This document shows positions 7,937 to 18,970 of a stretch of DNA of 27,822 nucleotides, in pieces. The notes under the pieces were generated by a model. It ran no database searches and had not been told where the DNA came from. It saw only the letters and a program-made list of their open reading frames with translations. Source of the DNA: Acidobacteriota bacterium (GTDB lineage Bacteria > Acidobacteriota > Terriglobia > Acidiferrales > UBA7541); contig PMOP01000461.1 in assembly GCA_003161495.1 (NCBI GenBank), forward strand, positions 1 through 27,822. The letters run 5' to 3'. Each line of letters begins with the position of its first letter. Position 1 is the first letter of the stretch. A program made the translations under genes and the position numbers.

Positions 7937-10318
7937 TCATTCCAGTTTGGCCACCATGGATTTTCCGGCGGCGGCGTCCAGAACTTCGCGGACGCGGCGA
8001 CAAAGGGCCGAAGGGCTATAAGGCTTGCGCAGGACCGCCACGCCGCGCGCCACCAGATCGGCCAGGATGGCCGTCTCATTCGTATAACCTGTTGTAAAGA
8101 GGACAGATGCGTCAGGTTTAAATGACTTGATGGCCGCAAATACCTCCGGGCCGCTGCGCTTGGGCATGATCACGTCCAACAAGACAAGTGAAATGATGTC
8201 GCGATGCGCCAGAAAACTTTCGACTGCTTCCTCTCCATCGTGCGCAAGCAAAACATGATAGCCCTTGGCCTTCAGAACCGATTGGGCCATCTCGCAAATG
8301 CCATCGTGGTCGTCGGCAAGCAGGATCGTTTCGGTTCCCCCGGGGACTGGCAAATCATCGAAGACAGTCTGGCGATTTTCGGTTGCAGTTGTTGTTTCGT
8401 TGACCGGAAGAAAGATTCGGAAAGTGCTGCCCCGGCCGATCTCGCTTTCCACTTGAACTAATCCATTGTGTTGTTTCACGATTCCGTAAACAGTGGCAAG
8501 CCCGAGGCCCGTGCCCTTTCCCAGCCCTTTGGTGGTAAAGAAAGGCTCAAAGATTCTCTCTCGTAGAGCGGCATCCATGCCTGATCCCGTATCGCTCACG
8601 CGGAGTTCGGCAAATCGTCCCGGCTGGAGCGCCGCATTGTGGCGGCAATTCTCCACGGAAAATTCGGCATTGTGGGTTTCGATGGCAATCCGCCCGCCCT
8701 TGGGCATCGCGTCGCGTGAATTAATGCAAAGATTCATGAGCACTTGATCGATTTGCGTGGGGTCGGCCCGCACGGTCCACAAGTCGTCGGTCAAATCCGT
8801 GTGGATCTCGATGTCTTTGCCGATCACTTTGTCGAGCAGATTCATGACTTCGTGGACTGTCTGGTTCAGGCTGAGACTTCGCGGCTCGAGGATTTGCCTG
8901 CGCGCGAACGCCAGCAACTGGTGGATCAGCGCCGTGACACGGTCGCATTGCACATGAATTTTTTTGAAATAATTCTCCAGAATCGCATTGCTGCAAGCGG
9001 CGGCTTGTTCCTCTCCGAGTTCCGCCCAACCGAGTATGGCGCCGACGACGTTGTTAAAATCGTGCGCGATTCCACCGGCCAGCTGGCCGAAGGCCTCGAA
9101 TTTCTGCGCCTGCCGTAACTGCTGTTCCAGAGCCCGCCGCTCGGACATATCCCGCGAAACGGTGGCGACGAAGCGCGGCTCGCCCGTCTCTTGGTCTTTC
9201 ACCTGGAATCCCACAAAATCCATGGGCAGGGTTTGGCCGGTCTGGCGATGGCGGAACCGCAATTCTCCTTCCCAGTGCCCATACGCGTAAAGCGCCGGCA
9301 AAATGGATTCATGCACCAACGGCAGATCGGCGGGAATCACATAATCGAGAGAATGCGTGCCTTCCAGTGACTCTTTTTCCGCGATCCCGAGCATGGCGCG
9401 GCCGGCGGGATTGATGTATTCCACGTTATCCAAAAGATCGGCTACGGCGATGAAGTCGCGGCTGTATTCCACGAGCGTAAAAAATTTCTGCTTTTCTTCC
9501 TCGGCTTTTTTTCGTTCGGTTATGTCCTGTGCCACGACCAGGGCAGCGGAATGCCCTGAGTATTCCATCTTGTGCAGGAACAACTCCACGTCCATCACGG
9601 ACTTGTCTTTACGCAGGTGGCGCCACTGGCCGGGGAGTTGCTCCCGCGGATTGGCGGCCTGAAAAGCCGCCAGCAATTTCGGAACTTCTTCGCCCGGATG
9701 CAGGTCGCTCGCCCTCATTTGCAGAAATTCCAGACGTTCATACCCGTAGTGGCGGAGCGCCGCATCGTTCACTTGCAGGAATTGCAGCGTCTCATTTTCA
9801 ATAACCCACATGGGCAGCGGGTTATGAGCAAAGAGAAAAAGAGAATTGGCTTCACTCTGCCGGAGCGCCTGCATCATAAAGTTGCGGGCGTCGCGAAGGG
9901 CCTTTTCCTCCAGAGCTCGCGACACAACATCGGGGAGGCGGGCCAGGTGTTCCTTCAAGACAAAATCCGTGATCCCTTGCTTGATGCAATCGACGGCCAC
10001 TTCCTCGCCGAGCGTTCCGGTAACCAAGATAAATGGAACATCGTGTCCCGACTGGCGCATCGCGGAAAAGGCGTCCATGCCGGTCCAGCCCGGGAGCCGG
10101 TAATCGGCCAGCACAATGTCGAACGGGAAACGCACGAGGAGCTCCGTAAACTCCGCGCGGGTGGTGACGATTTGCGGCTTGCAGTGAAATCCAGCGCTTC
10201 CCAGCTGGTGGAGATTCAGTTCGGCATCGGCCGCGCAATTTTCAATCAGCAGGGCGCGCAACGGCGCCGCCATGTTCCACACGGGCGGCGCCGGCGGATT
10301 TGTCACCGTTTGGCTCAT
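7937..10318 (-). CDS. Hybrid sensor histidine kinase, REC-PAS-PAS-HisKA-HATPase-REC
   Basis: A 793-residue cytoplasmic hybrid kinase without membrane segments. Order of domains: receiver 1 (about 20-140, phospho-acceptor Asp72 in LADYRLPG), PAS 1 (about 150-270, ending DITERKKAEE), PAS 2 with PAC (about 280-395, ending SRDMSERRALE), HisKA with phospho-His419 (QLAGGIAHDFNNVVG), HATPase (QVLMNLCINSRDAM, VSDTGSGM, FEPFFTTKGLGKGTGLGLATVYGI) and receiver 2 (about 662-785, LADDHD, Asp715 in LLDVIMPK, Lys765 in LRKPY). An N-terminal receiver lets it take input from another kinase, and the C-terminal receiver passes phosphate on. The ATG at 10318 is preceded by GGTGA; the frame opens at a TTG two codons earlier. 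It lies 112 bp after the ETR1-like kinase gene on the same strand. The sensed signal is unknown. Confidence 0.93.
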   Translation of the reverse strand: MSQTVTNPPAPPVWNMAAPLRALLIENCAADAELNLHQLGSAGFHCKPQIVTTRAEFTELLVRFPFDIVLADYRLPGWTGMDAFSAMRQSGHDVPFILVTGTLGEEVAVDCIKQGITDFVLKEHLARLPDVVSRALEEKALRDARNFMMQALRQSEANSLFLFAHNPLPMWVIENETLQFLQVNDAALRHYGYERLEFLQMRASDLHPGEEVPKLLAAFQAANPREQLPGQWRHLRKDKSVMDVELFLHKMEYSGHSAALVVAQDITERKKAEEEKQKFFTLVEYSRDFIAVADLLDNVEYINPAGRAMLGIAEKESLEGTHSLDYVIPADLPLVHESILPALYAYGHWEGELRFRHRQTGQTLPMDFVGFQVKDQETGEPRFVATVSRDMSERRALEQQLRQAQKFEAFGQLAGGIAHDFNNVVGAILGWAELGEEQAAACSNAILENYFKKIHVQCDRVTALIHQLLAFARRQILEPRSLSLNQTVHEVMNLLDKVIGKDIEIHTDLTDDLWTVRADPTQIDQVLMNLCINSRDAMPKGGRIAIETHNAEFSVENCRHNAALQPGRFAELRVSDTGSGMDAALRERIFEPFFTTKGLGKGTGLGLATVYGIVKQHNGLVQVESEIGRGSTFRIFLPVNETTTATENRQTVFDDLPVPGGTETILLADDHDGICEMAQSVLKAKGYHVLLAHDGEEAVESFLAHRDIISLVLLDVIMPKRSGPEVFAAIKSFKPDASVLFTTGYTNETAILADLVARGVAVLRKPYSPSALCRRVREVLDAAAGKSMVAKLE

Positions 10319-10430
10319 CCGCAATTCACCGCGTGTGGGAAACTATTTTGCGGCGAAAGCGCGTGGCGCATCGTCATTTTTGCCTCGGAATCGCCTTGCC
10401 CGCCGATTAGGATTTCGTTTTTCCCGGCAC

Positions 10431-12119
10431 TCACTCTTCACCCCTGAGGGACGCGAAGGAAGCCGGCGATACTGGAACCTGCTGCCTCACACAAAAGAAA
10501 AAGGTGGCGCCATTTCGTGGAGTGGACTCAGCGCGGATGCCGCCTCCGTGTTTTTGCAGGATGCGGTAAACAATCGCCAGCCCGATTCCCGTGCCCTCGA
10601 ATTCCTCATCGCCGTGCAGCCGCTGGAACACCTGAAAAAGTTTATCGGCGTACTTCATGTCAAATCCAACTCCGTTATCGCGCACGAAAATCACCGGCGC
10701 GCCCTCGATAAGATCCTCACCTATCTCGATGACGGGCTTTTCACTCCGGCCCGTGAATTTCACCGCATTGGAAAGCAAATTGGAAAATACTTGCCGCAGC
10801 AGCCCGCGGTCGCATTCCACCGGGGAAAGATGGCTCACGCGCCAGTCCACCGCGCGCCCGCGCGTTTCCGCTTCCAGATTCTGAATCGTCTCGGATACCA
10901 GTTCGTTCAGGTCCGTGGCCGTCATTTTCAGGGAGCCGCGCCCGACGCGCGCTAAATTCAACAAATCATCCACCAGCCGGCTCATGTGCATGGAGGCGGC
11001 GCGCACGCGATCCAGATGCTGCTTCGCGCCGGGTGGAAGTTGCGGGCCGAAGTCTTCGACGAGGATCCGCGAAAATCCATCCATGTGGCGAAGCGGCGCG
11101 CGCAGATCGTGCGAAACCGAATACGTGAACGATTCCAGATCGCGATTGGCCGTCTCCAGTTGCGCCGTGCGTTCTTTCACGCGATATTCCAGCTCCGCAT
11201 TCAACTTGTAGATTTCGCTCTCGGCGCGCTTTCGTTCCGAAATATCCACGATGCTTCCGCGTACCAGATGCCGTCCCGAAGACGGCAAGGGAACGAGTGA
11301 AATTTCGCAGGGAATTTCCACTCCCTTGGAATTCCGGTGAATCCATTCAAACCGCGGCGTTTCGTGGCGAAGCGCCTTCTCAAGTTCCACGCCCGCTGCT
11401 ACAGAAGAAGGCTGCCCATTCGGCTGGAACGGCGGACTAACTTCCACAGGCCCGACACCCAGCAACTCCTCCCGGCTCATGCCGAAGAGTCGCTCCGCGT
11501 TTTCATTTGCGTCAGCGAAGCGCCCCACATCGAGATCCAGCACGACGATCGCCTCAGGGGCATGCTCGACCAGCGTGCGATAGCGCTGCTCACTTTCCCG
11601 GAGCGAATGATTGGTCGCCTCCAACGCGGCCGTGCGTTCGGCAACGCGCTGCTCGAGGTCTTCGCTGACGCGTCGCAAACCGGATTCCGCCTGCAGTCGT
11701 TGCTCGACTTCCCCCGCGAGTATCCGGTTGATCGCGATGAGCCATTGAGTCCCAGGTAACGCCAGGGCGCGCGGAACGACGCGGATCAACAAAATGGCGG
11801 TGGCCACGGAAATGCCTGCCGTCACAGCTTTCAGCGCTCCCGCGAGCCAATAGGAAGGAAACCAGATGGTCCAGATTTCCATCAGGTGCGTGACGCCGCA
11901 GGCCACAATAAATGCCCCGAAGCATAGAAACATCCAGCTAAAAGGAATGTCCCGCCTCTTGCGCGCGAAATGCAGCAGCGTAATGGGAATTGACAGGTAG
12001 GAAAGCGCAATCAGAGAATCCGATACGACGTGCAACCAGATCAGTCCGGGAGTCCATAAGTAACAATTTCCGTGCGGCATAAAGCCGCCCGGGAAGATCA
12101 AGTGATTCAGGAACTGCAT
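10431..12119 (-). CDS. Sensor histidine kinase with ETR1-like ethylene/copper-binding membrane domain, PAS, HisKA, HATPase
   Basis: A 562-residue membrane kinase. Residues 1-120 form three hydrophobic helices that closely match the N-terminus of the plant ethylene receptor ETR1 (VSDSLIALSYLSIP, FGAFIVACGVTHL, LKAVTAGISVATAI). The ETR1 ethylene-site residues Asp25, Tyr32, Ile35, Pro36, Ile62, Cys65 and His69 correspond to Asp34, Tyr41, Ile44, Pro45, Ile71, Cys74 and His78, all at a constant offset of nine. Then come a coiled coil (about 135-175), a PAS domain (about 175-297), a second coiled coil, HisKA with His337 (SVSHDLRAPL) and an HATPase domain (FSNLLSNAVKF, RDNGVGFDMKYA, EGTGIGLAIV). There is no GAF domain and no receiver. 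The ATG at 12119 is chosen because the ETR1-like part begins there and GGGGGA precedes it; the frame extends to 12218. Ethylene or copper binding is predicted, not shown. Confidence 0.9.
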   Translation of the reverse strand: MQFLNHLIFPGGFMPHGNCYLWTPGLIWLHVVSDSLIALSYLSIPITLLHFARKRRDIPFSWMFLCFGAFIVACGVTHLMEIWTIWFPSYWLAGALKAVTAGISVATAILLIRVVPRALALPGTQWLIAINRILAGEVEQRLQAESGLRRVSEDLEQRVAERTAALEATNHSLRESEQRYRTLVEHAPEAIVVLDLDVGRFADANENAERLFGMSREELLGVGPVEVSPPFQPNGQPSSVAAGVELEKALRHETPRFEWIHRNSKGVEIPCEISLVPLPSSGRHLVRGSIVDISERKRAESEIYKLNAELEYRVKERTAQLETANRDLESFTYSVSHDLRAPLRHMDGFSRILVEDFGPQLPPGAKQHLDRVRAASMHMSRLVDDLLNLARVGRGSLKMTATDLNELVSETIQNLEAETRGRAVDWRVSHLSPVECDRGLLRQVFSNLLSNAVKFTGRSEKPVIEIGEDLIEGAPVIFVRDNGVGFDMKYADKLFQVFQRLHGDEEFEGTGIGLAIVYRILQKHGGGIRAESTPRNGATFFFCVRQQVPVSPASFASLRGEE

Positions 12120-12161
12120 GTTTCCCCCGCGTTGCTGGACTGCCTGGTGAAGTGAGGAAAT

Positions 12162-12181
12162 ATGCGCGAATAAACGCGCAT
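12162..12181 (-). promoter_or_regulatory. Hairpin in the spacer between the cyclase and the ETR1-like kinase
   Basis: A perfect 7-bp stem (ATGCGCG/CGCGCAT) with a 6-base AT loop lies 43 bases before the kinase ATG. No T-tract follows. It may stabilise or punctuate a shared message from the diguanylate cyclase gene; function is not established. Confidence 0.3.
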
Positions 12182-12264
12182 CCCCGCGAATAACACTCCA
12201 CAGATGCTTTATCGGCACTTTGCGGGATTGGCTTCAGCGAGAAAAATGGAGGTTCTGCAGCGGG

Positions 12265-13203
12265 TCAAGAGGAACTGGCGGCCGTCGATTGCTTCAGAGC
12301 GGGCGAATCGGTACGGCGCAATTGTTTATTTCTCTTTTCCTCGTACATATATCCATCCGCGATCCGCAGCAAATGATCGAGTGACGGTTGATGAACCACG
12401 GGCACGTCGGCAATCCCGACACTCAGGGAAAGCCGGAAATTCCACGAAGACAGCGCATTGATGAAATCCGTCCGCTGCTGCAGGCGCTTGCGGACTTGCT
12501 GGGCGGAGTCCTGCCCCGCATCGGTCATCAGAATGCAGAATTCATCGCCGCCCAGTCGCGCGAGAATGTCCGACTGCCGAAAGCAGGCGCGCAAAACATT
12601 TGCGGTCACCACCAATGCGCGGTTGCCTTCCAGGTGGCCGTAAGAATCGTTAATAAGTTTCAGATCGTCCAAATCCAGGTAGATGAGCAACGCCGCGCCT
12701 TTGCGTTGGATCATTCGCAGATGCTGCTCGGCCAGGGCCAGAAAACCGCGACGGTTGTATAGCCCCGTGAGGTCGTCCATCAGCGAAAGATTTTGCAGGT
12801 TCTTCTGCAGCCGGTGCCGTTCGATCGAATAACGCAGCGCTCGCACCAGCGCGCAGCGGTCCAAGTGCTGCTTATCCAGAAAATCCTGCACTCCTTGCCG
12901 CAGCGCATCCACGGCTAGCAATTCGTCTGCAGACTCCGCCAGAACGACGACGGGCGTATCCGGCGCCGCGGCACGCGCGGCTTGCACGTAGGCCCGGCCC
13001 TGATGCTGCTTGGAAGATTCCAGGTGAATGACCAAAATATCCGCTGGATCGCTGGAGAGGCGCTCTGCGGCAAGGTCGAGGTCTGCGACATGTCCAATAT
13101 GAAACTGACCGGAATCTTCCGTATCCAACAGCCCGCGAAGCCCGCAAGCATCTTTTGCTTCGCCCACCAATAGAATACGGATTGGCCCCCCATTGATCGA
13201 CAC
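12265..13203 (-). CDS. Diguanylate cyclase with degenerate receiver domain
   Basis: A 312-residue protein: a receiver-like domain (about 7-125) followed by a GGDEF domain (about 135-295), which makes c-di-GMP from two GTP. The GGDEF signature is intact (218-222) and an RxxD inhibitory site (Arg209-Asp212) stands exactly five residues before it, so product inhibition is expected. The receiver is degenerate: the phospho-Asp position reads VIHL with His60 where Asp is expected, and the acidic pair is replaced by GEA, so ordinary phosphorylation is unlikely; Lys111 is kept. The start is GTG, with GAGG seven bases upstream. It is first of three signalling genes on this strand. Whether the dead receiver still mediates dimerisation is unknown. 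Confidence 0.92.
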   Translation of the reverse strand: MSINGGPIRILLVGEAKDACGLRGLLDTEDSGQFHIGHVADLDLAAERLSSDPADILVIHLESSKQHQGRAYVQAARAAAPDTPVVVLAESADELLAVDALRQGVQDFLDKQHLDRCALVRALRYSIERHRLQKNLQNLSLMDDLTGLYNRRGFLALAEQHLRMIQRKGAALLIYLDLDDLKLINDSYGHLEGNRALVVTANVLRACFRQSDILARLGGDEFCILMTDAGQDSAQQVRKRLQQRTDFINALSSWNFRLSLSVGIADVPVVHQPSLDHLLRIADGYMYEEKRNKQLRRTDSPALKQSTAASSS

Positions 13204-13442: not shown

Positions 13443-13883
13443 TTACTCGGCGAAAAAAGATGCCGGGTCTGCAAGGAAAGGACTGACCACGAGGATGCCG
13501 TCCAGTTCCTGATTGGTTTGCAGGTCTTCGGTCAACAGATACCGGCAACCGATGGATTTCGCAGCGGCTAAAATAAGCGCATCCCAGAAGGACAGTTGGT
13601 AGCGGTCCTGCAGCTTCCAGCCTCGCTCCAAAATCGTGGCATCCACTGCCACCGGCCGCCAGGCCAGCAGATCTTTCACTTCGGCTCGCGCCTCGTCGCG
13701 ACTCTCCGGCCATTTCTGCGAGGCCTTGACATAAAACTCCTGCAGCACCTGAAAGCTGATTCGACCGAGACGGTTCTTCCAAAGGTGATCTCGCCATGCC
13801 CCGGCCGCGCGCTGCTTCTTTAAGTCCGCCGGGTCGAGCGCGTAAAGGAAGACATTGGTGTCAACGAAGACCGGCGCGGTCAT
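13443..13883 (-). CDS. vapC: PIN-domain toxin, VapC-like ribonuclease
   Basis: A 146-residue PIN-domain protein, the Mg-dependent ribonuclease component of a VapBC-type toxin-antitoxin pair. Acidic active-site candidates are Asp8 (PVFVDTNVFLYALD), Glu49 (QVLQEFYV), Asp101 (LSFWDALILAAA) and Asp120 (LLTEDLQ). Length and order fit the family. The ATG at 13883 is chosen because the PIN fold begins right there; the frame stays open upstream inside the antitoxin gene. It overlaps the end of the antitoxin gene by 23 bp, a typical coupled arrangement. All active-site acids are present, so the toxin looks functional. The RNA target is unknown. Confidence 0.9.
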   Translation of the reverse strand: MTAPVFVDTNVFLYALDPADLKKQRAAGAWRDHLWKNRLGRISFQVLQEFYVKASQKWPESRDEARAEVKDLLAWRPVAVDATILERGWKLQDRYQLSFWDALILAAAKSIGCRYLLTEDLQTNQELDGILVVSPFLADPASFFAE

Positions 13884-14109
13884 GGGCCTCCTCGCGCGAT
13901 AGGTATCGCCCGGGCCTCTTGCGGAAGCCTTTGCGCGCCAGAGCGCGGCGCATGGCACGATCATAACCGTCGTTCTGAAGCATGCGCTCTTTCAGAATGA
14001 TTCCCAGCAGTCGCGAAACGCTGGTCTCCTTACGAGCCGCCTCGATGCGAGCCCATCGGGCTACTGGCTCCTCAAGCGTGACGGTGACATTGCGCAGTTT
14101 TCTTTTCAT
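13861..14109 (-). CDS. vapB: Ribbon-helix-helix antitoxin, VapB-like
   Basis: An 82-residue protein with an N-terminal ribbon-helix-helix DNA-binding motif (RNVTVTLEEPVARWARIEAARKE in overlap with SVSRLLGIILKERM) and a basic C-terminal half likely to wrap the toxin. It precedes and overlaps the PIN toxin gene. The ATG at 14109 is placed six bases after a perfect TATATT -10 box, which suggests translation from an almost leaderless message; no ribosome binding site exists. Two inverted repeats of the form ACACGAA...GTGT overlap the promoter and are the probable operator for autorepression by the antitoxin or toxin-antitoxin complex. Family call (CopG/RHH) is secure, while the VapB name reflects the PIN partner. 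Confidence 0.85.
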   Translation of the reverse strand: MKRKLRNVTVTLEEPVARWARIEAARKETSVSRLLGIILKERMLQNDGYDRAMRRALARKGFRKRPGRYLSREEAHDRAGLR

Positions 14110-15056: not shown

Positions 15057-17600
15057 TTACTTCGCTTGATTGCGCGACTGGCTGAGCAAATTCACAAACA
15101 GGCGGAAGGCCCCGGCGTTTCCTTCGGGCAACTGGCGCGAGAAGGAGAGGCCCGTGTAGATGTATGTGCCTTTCCCGGTGCGCGTCCAGACCAGGCTGCC
15201 GAGCAGATCTTTTTCGCCGGGATCGTGCATCGCGAGGACCGCCTGATATTTGGCATCCCACTTCTCCAGAAAATAGAGGCCGCGCTCCTGCACCCAGCCG
15301 TCGAAATCATGGGCTGCGATTTTATTCGGGAAATTCAGAAGCGGGCTCGCGGGATCGGTGAAATTCACCGCGGAATTTTCGTCGGTGACGCGCGGACCCG
15401 GGCCCATTGTCGCCGGAAATGGGGCGAGCTTGAGCGCGTCCCAAATCGCGGGGCGCTGATCCAGCACGATCAGCGTGCCGCCACCCGCGGCGTAATCGAG
15501 CAGGCGCGAATTGGAGGCGACCACGTCGGAACGCAGTTCATAGGCGCGCATGCCGGCCACGATGGCGTCGAACTGGCTGAGATCGCCGAAGGCCAGGGCG
15601 TTCGCGTCGAGATTCTCGACGTCGACGCCGAGGCGCCGCAACGAATCCGGAATGGCCGCGTCATTGTCGGCGGAAATGTAGCCCACGCGCAAATGTTCCG
15701 GCACGGTGATGGAAAACACATGCACGGGCACAGTGGCGGGCGCGCTCCAAAGATAGGTGGGCAGCGAAGGCAGCGGCTCCAGCGAAGTTTCAAATGTTTC
15801 CTGCCCGCGTTTCGCAAAGGCCTTCAGGACGTAATTTCCCGCCGCGATTTTCGTGGGAGGAGTGACCGCGATATGCACCAGGCGATCGCCCGCGCCTGAA
15901 AATTCCACGGATTCGAGCGCAGGGGCTTTCCAGCCGGCCGGCACTTCCACTCCCACGCTAACCTTTGATGGGGTTTGCGCAAAGGAGTGCACGCGCGCAA
16001 AGACATCGAATTGTTTTGGCTGGCGCGACTCAACCACCACGTATTGCTCAGGCTCGGGTGTGAGTCCAACGGGTGGAACGATGCGCAGCGGGTAACTCAA
16101 TACGCTGACCGTGGATGCGTGCAGGCTTTCTACCGGCGTGGTGAAATCGAATGCATAGCCCTCGGCTTCGACATGCGTTCGCGCGAGAACCAGCGGCGGC
16201 GGAAACGGCCGCAGAAAATCGCTCGGCGCGTGCGGCGTTTGCGCTCCCGTGGGAACAGCGACGCTGAAATTCGTCGAGCCGTCCTTTTCCTCCTGCTTCG
16301 TGATGCTCCACCCTGACGGCAGCGCAAGGTCCAGCTTGGAAAATGTGGCCGGGATATCCTTGCGGTACGCTATTTCGGCGCGCACGCCGAATCCTTCGCC
16401 GGCGACAAGTTCACTGCGGTCGGCATTGGATACAATTTTGATGGCCGCGGCATCGGCGAACGCATGATTGATTCGTTCGCGCACTTGCTCGAGTTCCCAC
16501 AATCCGCTTGCCGCAGACGGTTCCTGCGAGCGCTTCACTTGCTCTTCGAGCGCCGCAATCTGTTTGCCGGCTTCGGCGATCGAGCGCACGGCGCCGGGCC
16601 AGTCCAGTTTTTCCGCGGCCATGCGAGCTTGATCAAGATCGTGGTCAGCTGCAGCAAGCGCATCCTGAGACGGCACCGGAAGCACGCGGGCAAGCGACGT
16701 GATCGGTTGCGCAAAATCGGACGGCGAAGGTTGTCCTCCCGTCGCGAACTTCAAGCCGTACGGGCGCCGAAGGAACGGCGAATTGAGGAACGGCGTCACG
16801 CCTTGCGAGCGGTGATGCAGATAGCCCTGGAGGGCAATGTCTCGATAACTGAGCCCCCAAATCGGAGAAATTTCATCAGCGGGCACCACCCACGAACCGG
16901 TGTAATCCACCTTCTCATCCTGCGCGGTCGCGCGCACCGGATCGAGAATCATTTCAGCGCGCCATGGCTTCAGCCCCTCGGCAATTTGTTCGGGATATTT
17001 CGTCGGATCGGCCGCGGCCTCGACGGCTTTCGGCGTTTGATAGCCCGAATCCTGATGATTGCCGTGGCCCGTTTTCATGCCGCCCCAGCCGTTGATTACA
17101 ATTTGCGGGCGCAGCATACGAATCGCGCGCACCATGTCTTCCAGCTCCACCCCATTCCATTTTTCGAGTGTCTCTTCGAGCGTTTTTGAAAATCCGAAAT
17201 CGACGACGCGCGTGAAATAAAGGTGCGGCCCTTCGACGTTCATCGCCGCCGAAAGCTCGGCGCTGCGCAAGATGCCGAGTTGCGCGCCCTGCTCCGGGCC
17301 GATGGCGTTCTGGCCGCCCTCGCCGCGATTCAGCGTCAAAAGCGTCGTGTCCGTGCCCAGCGCGTGCGGCAGATACGTGAGCAGCGTGGAGGCTTCGTCA
17401 TCGGGATGGGCCACGGTGAAGAGGACGCGCGTCACGACGCGTGCTTTTTGGATCGATTCGAGCGTGTCCGCAACGCTTTGGCCGCGGCCGGGAGCGGGAG
17501 GTTCCTGCTGCGCGCTCACGCGACTCAAAACGAGCGTCAGCGCGCTGATCGCAACCAGAAGCGAAAGCACTCCGAATTTTTGCCGGCGTTTGCGTTTCAT
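15057..17600 (-). CDS. Large exported PIG-L/LmbE-family deacetylase with extra C-terminal domains
   Basis: An 847-residue exported protein. A signal peptide (about 1-31, basic start then VLSLLVAISALTLVLSRVSAQ) precedes a PIG-L/LmbE domain (about 55-330) with AHPDDE (64-69) and GHGNHQDSG (His182), the zinc-binding signature of GlcNAc-type N-deacetylases; RGEGGQN is also present. Next come beta-rich repeats (about 400-650) and a Rossmann-like ThuA/GATase-type domain near 655-830 (GYISADND, FDAIVAGMRAYELR, GGGTLIVLDQ). Family members without extensions are about 250 residues. The ATG at 17600 overlaps the permease stop by four bases (ATGA), so translation is probably coupled; the frame extends upstream into the permease. 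The substrate is unknown, but an extracytoplasmic amino-sugar conjugate is plausible. Confidence 0.85.
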   Translation of the reverse strand: MKRKRRQKFGVLSLLVAISALTLVLSRVSAQQEPPAPGRGQSVADTLESIQKARVVTRVLFTVAHPDDEASTLLTYLPHALGTDTTLLTLNRGEGGQNAIGPEQGAQLGILRSAELSAAMNVEGPHLYFTRVVDFGFSKTLEETLEKWNGVELEDMVRAIRMLRPQIVINGWGGMKTGHGNHQDSGYQTPKAVEAAADPTKYPEQIAEGLKPWRAEMILDPVRATAQDEKVDYTGSWVVPADEISPIWGLSYRDIALQGYLHHRSQGVTPFLNSPFLRRPYGLKFATGGQPSPSDFAQPITSLARVLPVPSQDALAAADHDLDQARMAAEKLDWPGAVRSIAEAGKQIAALEEQVKRSQEPSAASGLWELEQVRERINHAFADAAAIKIVSNADRSELVAGEGFGVRAEIAYRKDIPATFSKLDLALPSGWSITKQEEKDGSTNFSVAVPTGAQTPHAPSDFLRPFPPPLVLARTHVEAEGYAFDFTTPVESLHASTVSVLSYPLRIVPPVGLTPEPEQYVVVESRQPKQFDVFARVHSFAQTPSKVSVGVEVPAGWKAPALESVEFSGAGDRLVHIAVTPPTKIAAGNYVLKAFAKRGQETFETSLEPLPSLPTYLWSAPATVPVHVFSITVPEHLRVGYISADNDAAIPDSLRRLGVDVENLDANALAFGDLSQFDAIVAGMRAYELRSDVVASNSRLLDYAAGGGTLIVLDQRPAIWDALKLAPFPATMGPGPRVTDENSAVNFTDPASPLLNFPNKIAAHDFDGWVQERGLYFLEKWDAKYQAVLAMHDPGEKDLLGSLVWTRTGKGTYIYTGLSFSRQLPEGNAGAFRLFVNLLSQSRNQAK

Positions 17601-18970
17601 TGTTGCGCCTCTGTGGCCGCGACAACGGCGAATGGCCAGATGCGGCGATAGCGCGCCTGAATCATATAAGTAACGATGCCCAAAGCGATCACGCCAAGCC
17701 CTCCAAGCGCGAATTTCCATCCCGTGGAATAAAATAACGCGACCCAGCCCAAAATCGCCAGCAGGGCCGGCCAAGGATAGAGCCACATCTTAAAGGGAAG
17801 CCGCTCCGGAGGCCAGCGCCGCCGCAGGATCATCACGCCCACGCCCTGGCTGATGAACTGCACGATCAGACGCACGGCGATGATCGCCTTGATCACACTG
17901 GATAATCGGAAGAGCACGCTGAACGCGAGCGACGCGGCGCCCAGAAACAATAGCGACACGTGCGGAAAATGTTTTTTGGGATGCACGCGCGCGAAGACCG
18001 GGAAAAAATTCCCGTCCTCGGCCGCGGCAAATGGCACGCGCGAATAGCTGAGCAGCGTGGTGAAGAGCGAAGCAAACGCGATCCACAAAATCATGATCGT
18101 GGCGAACGTGGCGGCGCGCGGGCCATACAGCCTCTCGACGAACGTGCTCACGATGTATTGCGAATTCTGCGCCTCGCGCCACGGCACGACGCCCAGAATG
18201 CTCGTCTGCATCGCGAGGTACAACACGGCGATTCCCGCGATCGAAATTAAAATCGCGCGCGGAATGTTGCGCTCAGGTTCGCGAATCTCCGCGCCCAGAT
18301 TGCAGATGTGGTAATAGCCGAGGTAGGTATAAACCGTGTTGACCGACGCCGAGCCGAGCCCCGCGAAAAACAGCCACGACCAATTCCATGCTCCCGGCGG
18401 AAAATCAAACGCCATGCGCGCCGAAAAATGAGTCACTCCTCCCCAAATCAGCCACGCCATCGTGCCCACGACGCCGATCCACAGAAATTTTGAGATCGTC
18501 CCCACCGCCGAAATCCTGCGGTACAAAAGCCCGATTAAAAGCAGAACCAGACCCGCCGAAATCAATTTCTGCTCATACGTTCCGAGTGGAATAAGATAGG
18601 TGAGATACTGCGAAAATCCAATCGCGCCCGATGCCACTACCAGCGGCGCCTGAATGAGCGTCTGCCAGATATAAAGAAACGACATCAGCCGCCCGCCGCG
18701 CCCCGGCCCATAAATTTCCCGCAGAAACGCATACGTCCCGCCGGCCCGAGGCATAGCCGCACCAAGTTCCGCCCAAACAAGTCCATCGAGCAAGGAAAGC
18801 ACGGCACCCGCGACCCATGCCAGCAGACATTGCGGTCCTCCCATCGCCTGAATGACGAGCGGAATCACGATGAACGGCCCAATCCCGACCATCGCGTTCA
18901 TGTTCAGCGCGACAGCCTCGCTCAGGCCGAGCCCTCGTTCGAGTTGTTCCTCCGGTAAAGGTGTGGACAT
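17597..18970 (-). CDS. APC-superfamily amino acid permease
   Basis: A 457-residue polytopic membrane protein with about 12 hydrophobic helices. The opening LGLSEAVALNMNAMVGIGPFIVIPLV contains the unwound GIGPFI motif of helix 1 in APC transporters, and AELGAAMPRAGGTYAFLREIYG is the conserved helix 2/loop signature. AEIREPERNIPRAI is the typical cytoplasmic loop. It probably imports an amino acid or amine by proton or sodium symport, or exchanges it; the substrate cannot be deduced. Its last codons overlap the start of the PIG-L protein gene, so the pair forms an operon and may handle related compounds. A terminator ends just upstream of its leader. Start chosen at ATG 18970. Confidence 0.9.
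   Translation of the reverse strand: MSTPLPEEQLERGLGLSEAVALNMNAMVGIGPFIVIPLVIQAMGGPQCLLAWVAGAVLSLLDGLVWAELGAAMPRAGGTYAFLREIYGPGRGGRLMSFLYIWQTLIQAPLVVASGAIGFSQYLTYLIPLGTYEQKLISAGLVLLLIGLLYRRISAVGTISKFLWIGVVGTMAWLIWGGVTHFSARMAFDFPPGAWNWSWLFFAGLGSASVNTVYTYLGYYHICNLGAEIREPERNIPRAILISIAGIAVLYLAMQTSILGVVPWREAQNSQYIVSTFVERLYGPRAATFATIMILWIAFASLFTTLLSYSRVPFAAAEDGNFFPVFARVHPKKHFPHVSLLFLGAASLAFSVLFRLSSVIKAIIAVRLIVQFISQGVGVMILRRRWPPERLPFKMWLYPWPALLAILGWVALFYSTGWKFALGGLGVIALGIVTYMIQARYRRIWPFAVVAATEAQQ

Follow-up and report, generated by a model that had tools for sequence, protein, structure and literature searches.

The window analysed here, a stretch of 27,822 nucleotides (C321:1-27822) from a 3.9-Mb Terriglobia MAG in 544 contigs that is 72.6% complete, carries on its minus strand a histidine kinase with an N-terminal ethylene-binding domain (EBD), a hybrid histidine kinase, a short gene remnant between the two, and a GGDEF protein upstream of the receptor kinase (Table 1). 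As listed, the full open reading frame of the receptor kinase is 10431..12218, and the ATG at 12119 lies inside it; the product from this ATG begins MQFLNHLIFPGG. The reading frame of the related locus L027 itself starts at the equivalent ATG and that of a second relative, L026, extends further upstream, so 12119 is the better start, short of proof, and an earlier note on this DNA had placed the gene reasonably at 10431..12119. Two further minus-strand genes lie upstream of the GGDEF gene: one for a PIN-domain protein (13443-13964; Pfam PIN, 9.7e-16) and one for a 909-residue PIG-L deacetylase-like protein with a NEW3 domain (15057-17786), which adjoins an amino acid permease.

Table 1 Features of the receptor locus, in window positions.
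Feature	Position	Strand	Details
Hybrid kinase, REC-PAS-PAS-HisKA-HATPase-REC	7937..10318	minus	ATG at 10318; ORF listed from TTG at 10324; Pfam
Response regulator remnant, 39 codons + stop	10315..10434	minus	GTGA overlap with kinase stop; ATGA overlap with next gene
Ethylene-receptor-like histidine kinase, 562 aa	10431..12119	minus	ATG start; ORF open to GTG at 12218
HisKA, aa 329-394, and HATPase_c, aa 437-545	10485..11135	minus	Pfam; phospho-acceptor H337; N451, D481, G511
PAS domain, aa about 184-298	11226..11570	minus	Pfam PAS_4, 1.4e-12
ETR1_N ethylene-binding domain, aa 26-121	11757..12044	minus	Pfam PF25487; D34, Y41, I44, P45, I71, C74, H78, K97
Receiver-like + GGDEF diguanylate cyclase	12265..13203	minus	Pfam; GGDEF and RxxD intact; acceptor Asp replaced by His

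The kinase has the domain order EBD-PAS-HisKA-HATPase, and its histidine kinase core motifs are all intact. Pfam ETR1_N matches its N-terminus over profile positions 2-97 of 97 (E 2.6e-41; 140 bits, where the cut-off is 27), and a genome-wide profile search returned the same domain at E 2.6e-42. The 14 control genomes contain no ETR1_N match, which argues that the match is not due to chance. Assignment of this stretch to an unrelated membrane domain, the result that the earlier note had named as fatal to its reading, is ruled out, as ETR1_N is the sole Pfam match there at E ≤0.01. The description of the protein as a bacterial histidine kinase with an intact ETR1-type domain thus stands.

The Arabidopsis ETR1 stretch used for alignment itself scores ETR1_N at 6.8e-34. 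In the MAFFT alignment, residues D25, Y32, I35, P36, I62, C65, and H69 of ETR1 correspond to D34, Y41, I44, P45, I71, C74, and H78 of the kinase, identical at 7/7 positions and at the constant offset of nine that had been read from the sequence, and the CGxTH copper site proposed there takes the form CGVTH. The helix-3 lysine K91 of ETR1 is matched by K97, and ETR1 A31 is replaced by Ser, a residue also present at this position in AzoEtr1 of Azospirillum brasilense Sp7, a shown binder. Over the EBD, the kinase is identical to ETR1 at 37/92 positions, to AzoEtr1 at 47/92, and to its closest relatives, L026 and L027, at 80/92 and 81/92, respectively; it differs from ETR1 in carrying a PAS domain in place of a GAF domain. 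Seven ETR1 residues are described as required for ethylene binding, and the positions of D25, C65, H69, and K91 in the aligned ETR1 stretch agree with the same source (PLoS Genet 2025, PMC11819568). Mean hydropathy of 1.37-1.55 over residues 24-52, 60-86, and 91-113 is as expected of three N-terminal transmembrane helices. An AlphaFold model of the EBD alone has three long helices (24-54 with a one-residue break, 60-86, and 88-120) at a moderate mean pLDDT of 70.5, bearing out the three helices noted earlier at that confidence; the full-length model is poor, particularly in its membrane part (mean pLDDT 57.9), and both models were built on alignments of five rows.

A tree of EBD sequences (107 rows, 93 columns, Slr1212 not among the rows), in which many forks are unresolved and bootstrap values unsettled, places the window kinase, L026, and L027 in one group (support 100/96), itself inside a group of 58 rows (100/96) that includes AzoEtr1, two cyanobacterial plasmid proteins, and one Eleftheria protein. 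ETR1 itself has a long branch and an unreliable position; of the alignment and tree that the earlier note had proposed as a check, the alignment with ETR1 agrees at all seven residues and the tree joins the kinase to AzoEtr1. The AzoEtr1 locus (L106) comes from an unannotated Sp7 plasmid record, and we identified it by its length of 525 residues and by D35, C75, H79, and K98, in agreement with PMC11819568. It shares with the 562-residue window kinase the EBD-PAS-HisKA-HATPase order, the seven residues, and the helix-3 lysine. By sequence, therefore, the kinase is a putative bacterial ethylene receptor of the AzoEtr1 type. AzoEtr1 binds labelled ethylene, and its phosphate is proposed to pass to the single-domain regulator AzoRRetr1, whose gene overlaps the kinase stop codon (PMC11819568).

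The kinase appears to be under purifying selection, with dN/dS of 0.115 against L026 and 0.128 against L027, ratios that are rough because dS is about 1. Of its three parts, the EBD has the lowest non-synonymous divergence (pN of 0.078 and 0.076 against L026 and L027, respectively), compared with 0.110 and 0.115 for the linker and PAS domain and 0.116 and 0.134 for the kinase core.

Gene order in L026 and L027 is receiver-GGDEF protein, EBD kinase, a 158-residue single-domain response regulator, and hybrid kinase. The regulator of these relatives is a receiver domain of the usual type (Pfam Response_reg, 1.4e-17) and, as in Azospirillum, its gene overlaps the kinase stop codon; the AzoEtr1-type arrangement of kinase and directly following regulator is thus present in L026 and L027 but not in the window, where the stretch from the kinase stop codon to the start of the hybrid kinase contains a single reading frame, of 39 codons (10434..10315). 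The first 84 nucleotides of this frame match the 5' end of the regulator gene at 40/84 positions for L026 and 38/84 for L027, a level reached by 0 and 1 of 20,000 base shuffles, respectively. The frame is shorter than the regulator gene of the relatives by exactly 357 nucleotides, a multiple of three, and retains the GTGA and ATGA overlaps at its two ends; we therefore attribute the loss of the regulator to a net in-frame deletion. The acidic receiver residues are absent from what is left, and the response regulator gene has been reduced to a stub in this lineage. The earlier note, which had correctly named the cyclase and the hybrid kinase as companion genes, overlooked this reduced regulator between the two kinases.

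Relocation of the regulator within the genome is unsupported. Elsewhere in the window's own genome the search gave no close copy, the best match being 52% identical and lying behind its own kinase fragment, although at 72.6% completeness a relocated gene could be missed. A search of five other genomes of the genus at 1e-20 returned four places in two genomes: matches of 100% and 92% are the regulators beside the receptor, and those of 51% and 36% are paralogues, so that, within the five genomes, orthologues at this level (92-100%) are confined to the receptor loci of two.

The hybrid kinase adjoins the receptor in all three loci of the genus that have one, and its orthologues occupy the same place in L026 and L027 (71-72% identity over 787-789 residues). 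In its N-terminal receiver the acceptor Asp is conserved, as are the Thr and Lys, and the usual acidic pair is reduced to a single acidic residue (Glu-Asn). Neither the receptor kinase nor the hybrid kinase contains internal stops, and dN/dS for the two, measured against both relatives at a dS close to 1 or higher, ranges from 0.115 to 0.157.

ETR1_N was counted in overlapping draws of genomes, each including that of the window: it is present in 22 of 89 family genomes, in 79 of 399 of the class Terriglobia (the window's genome and others of 90% completeness or more), and in 24 of 395 drawn evenly across the phylum, 23 of them over the cut-off. Three of the five other genus genomes have no ETR1_N match. 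Neighbourhoods were surveyed at 103 Terriglobia EBD loci, comprising the window, L026, L027, 20 further family loci, and 80 of 81 other places in the class; the survey covers 24 of 25 family rows (23 loci) and omits the G053 locus and one weak G210 locus (E 5.8e-9). The EBD is joined to a kinase in 57 of these loci, to a kinase with a fused receiver in 23, to a fused GGDEF domain in 13 (L127, L172, L176, L180, L193, L197, L198, L202, L205-L207, L209, L210), and to no or a partial output in 10. All seven binding residues are kept in 26/57, 14/23, 0/13, and 6/10 of these, respectively; the difference between the kinase types (40/80) and the GGDEF fusions (0/13) has a Fisher p of 0.0004, ignoring shared ancestry. 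Some EBD proteins are long (for example L139, of 1771 residues, and L141), and a purpose-built profile places as many as about ten PAS repeats ahead of the kinase. The EBD gene of L128 (G060) looks broken, with two overlapping matches in different frames, one of which has an internal stop.

A single-domain regulator directly follows the kinase in 25 of the 57 kinase loci, with a REC-kinase gene next in 13 of these 25. It is absent at more than half of the 57, including the window, and at 11 of the 26 with all seven residues; because neighbours were annotated with small purpose-built profile models instead of Pfam, other regulator types may be missed in these counts. A comparison set of 70 related-kinase loci lacking an EBD comprised the 80 best of 277 places after removal of L026 and L027, two others with an EBD, and six with fewer than 1500 bases downstream; the regulator is present in 38 of the 70 and a further REC-kinase gene in 25. 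We thus rejected the idea of an ethylene-specific gene module: the order kinase, regulator, REC-kinase occurs in 25/70 loci without an EBD versus 13/57 EBD kinases, in sets that are unmatched, the former spanning many phyla. As this order is found around other sensors too, it appears to be a general habit of the kinase group, onto which the EBD has been placed; the window shares the order with these modules and differs in its EBD sensor and in the loss of the middle gene.

Positions 25 and 91 (ETR1 numbering) change together across 108 EBD sequences, with Asp/Lys in 75 and Asn/Asn in 15. Among 57 representatives of less than 60% identity, Lys91 occurs in 40/49 with Asp25 versus 1/8 of the others, the single exception being a fragment with a gap at position 25 that entered the Fisher count as 'not D'. 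This covariation fits the D25-K91 contact predicted for ETR1 by modelling (PMC11819568). Fourteen short ETR1_N kinases of 367-439 residues (L178, L181, L184-L192, L194-L196), which belong to one class-level family, f11, and form a clade with support of 100/100, have Asn at both positions. In these kinases Pro36 is replaced by Cys (13) or Ser (1), with Cys65 and His69 conserved; they possibly have a changed metal site or another ligand.

Considering these observations together, we think it likely that the kinase is a membrane sensor of the bacterial ethylene-receptor kind that signals to the adjacent hybrid kinase. Its three N-terminal helices, as a dimer, would build a Cu(I) site out of C74 and H78, with D34 and K97 setting its position. 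Ethylene would bind there, as the identity of the binding residues to those of ETR1 suggests, and binding would change, and probably lower, autophosphorylation of H337, by analogy with the lowered autophosphorylation proposed for SynEtr1 (Slr1212 of Synechocystis) and AzoEtr1 (PMC11819568). In the relatives, the phosphate acceptor would be the single-domain regulator of the next gene downstream, in line with the proposal for AzoEtr1; in the window lineage, phosphate would most likely pass to the N-terminal receiver of the hybrid kinase and then through the hybrid kinase's own relay. The regulator stub, the gene order, and the loss of other candidates make this receiver, whose phosphotransfer residues are present as described above, the most plausible remaining target, and the transfer itself is what we infer from them. 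A stricter version, in which the in-frame deletion of the regulator and the loss of the cyclase Asp rewired the receptor so that its signal runs straight into the hybrid kinase receiver, is tentative and somewhat doubtful; the available passages of PMC11819568 and PMC7700396 describe no such receptor-to-hybrid-kinase relay for SynEtr1 or AzoEtr1.

The proposed receptor resembles SynEtr1, as far as the descriptions in PMC11819568 and PMC7700396 go, in having an EBD on a histidine kinase with two-component signalling. SynEtr1 doubles as a light receptor and has Slr1213 as its regulator, whereas the window kinase has a PAS domain as its soluble sensor and no intact adjacent regulator gene of this type; unlike the AzoEtr1/AzoRRetr1 pair, it has a regulator remnant and lies between receiver-GGDEF and REC-PAS-PAS-HK-REC genes. 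Plant receptors act mainly without kinase activity (PMC11819568); the window kinase looks active and would be expected to carry out phosphotransfer.

The ligand could be a different one. The EBD may hold copper yet sense copper itself, oxygen, CO, NO, or another small alkene, or may serve as a membrane anchor while the PAS domain does the sensing. Such readings draw on the presence of that PAS domain, on the many changed ETR1_N sites in the class (half of the kinase types lack the full set of seven), by which the fold can diverge in function, and on the fact that binding among bacteria is shown, in the available passages of PMC11819568 and PMC7700396, for SynEtr1 and AzoEtr1 alone. We consider them unlikely for a kinase that keeps the seven residues and K97, groups with AzoEtr1, and changes least in its EBD at non-synonymous sites. 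Of the two ligands offered by the earlier note, ethylene is accordingly suggested as the better reading by the domain family, the 7/7 identity, and the similarity to AzoEtr1, and copper sensing as such has no separate support. Nothing else examined in the genome points to ethylene: no ACC deaminase scored over the cut-off in the three genomes searched (the window's own and two relatives), one relative having a weak match of 25.6 bits versus 392, but sensing does not require this enzyme.

Two further readings concern the output. That the receptor drives c-di-GMP production through the adjacent cyclase, one of the two outputs the earlier note had favoured, would agree with the same-strand position of this gene directly upstream in all three genus loci with a receptor and with its intact GGDEF and RxxD sites. 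Its receiver-like domain, however, scores 26.3 bits, below the Pfam cut-off of 30.2 (L026, at 33.3, is just above), has His at an acceptor position that remains Asp in L026 and L027, and lacks the usual acidic pair, as it does in both relatives; it does not look like a phosphorylatable receiver in the window, and phosphorylation-driven output is poorly supported. A same-strand GGDEF gene directly upstream of the EBD gene occurs in 3/103 Terriglobia loci, namely the window, L026, and L027, and in 0/100 of the others, and none of the fused EBD-GGDEF proteins keeps all seven residues. This reading is therefore very improbable, and the other output, a phosphorelay, remains plausible given the intact-looking kinase motifs and hybrid kinase receivers. 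(GGDEF genes are placed otherwise at L115, two genes upstream, and at L204, on the other strand.) Loss of a partner gene could also mean a decaying pathway, with the receptor an orphan kinase without a working output now that its regulator is gone, and the lost cyclase Asp and the three genus genomes without ETR1_N are in keeping with this. Decay is nonetheless distinctly unlikely: both kinases are free of internal stops with low, if rough, dN/dS, and both gene overlaps at the remnant are preserved in frame.

Bacterial ethylene receptors are already known: EBDs with many outputs have been described in proteobacteria and cyanobacteria (PMC7700396) and putative receptors in other bacterial phyla (PMC11819568). 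No paper on an acidobacterial ethylene receptor was found in the open-licence literature. What is unusual here is the partner gene cut to a stub. The kind of receptor is now counted in soil Acidobacteriota, with the domain in about a fifth of the Terriglobia genomes drawn, and intact binding sites accompany kinase outputs rather than fused cyclases. The window kinase would allow ethylene sensing to be tested beyond plant-associated Proteobacteria and cyanobacteria, and a lineage that has lost the partner gene is a natural experiment on where the signal of such receptors goes.
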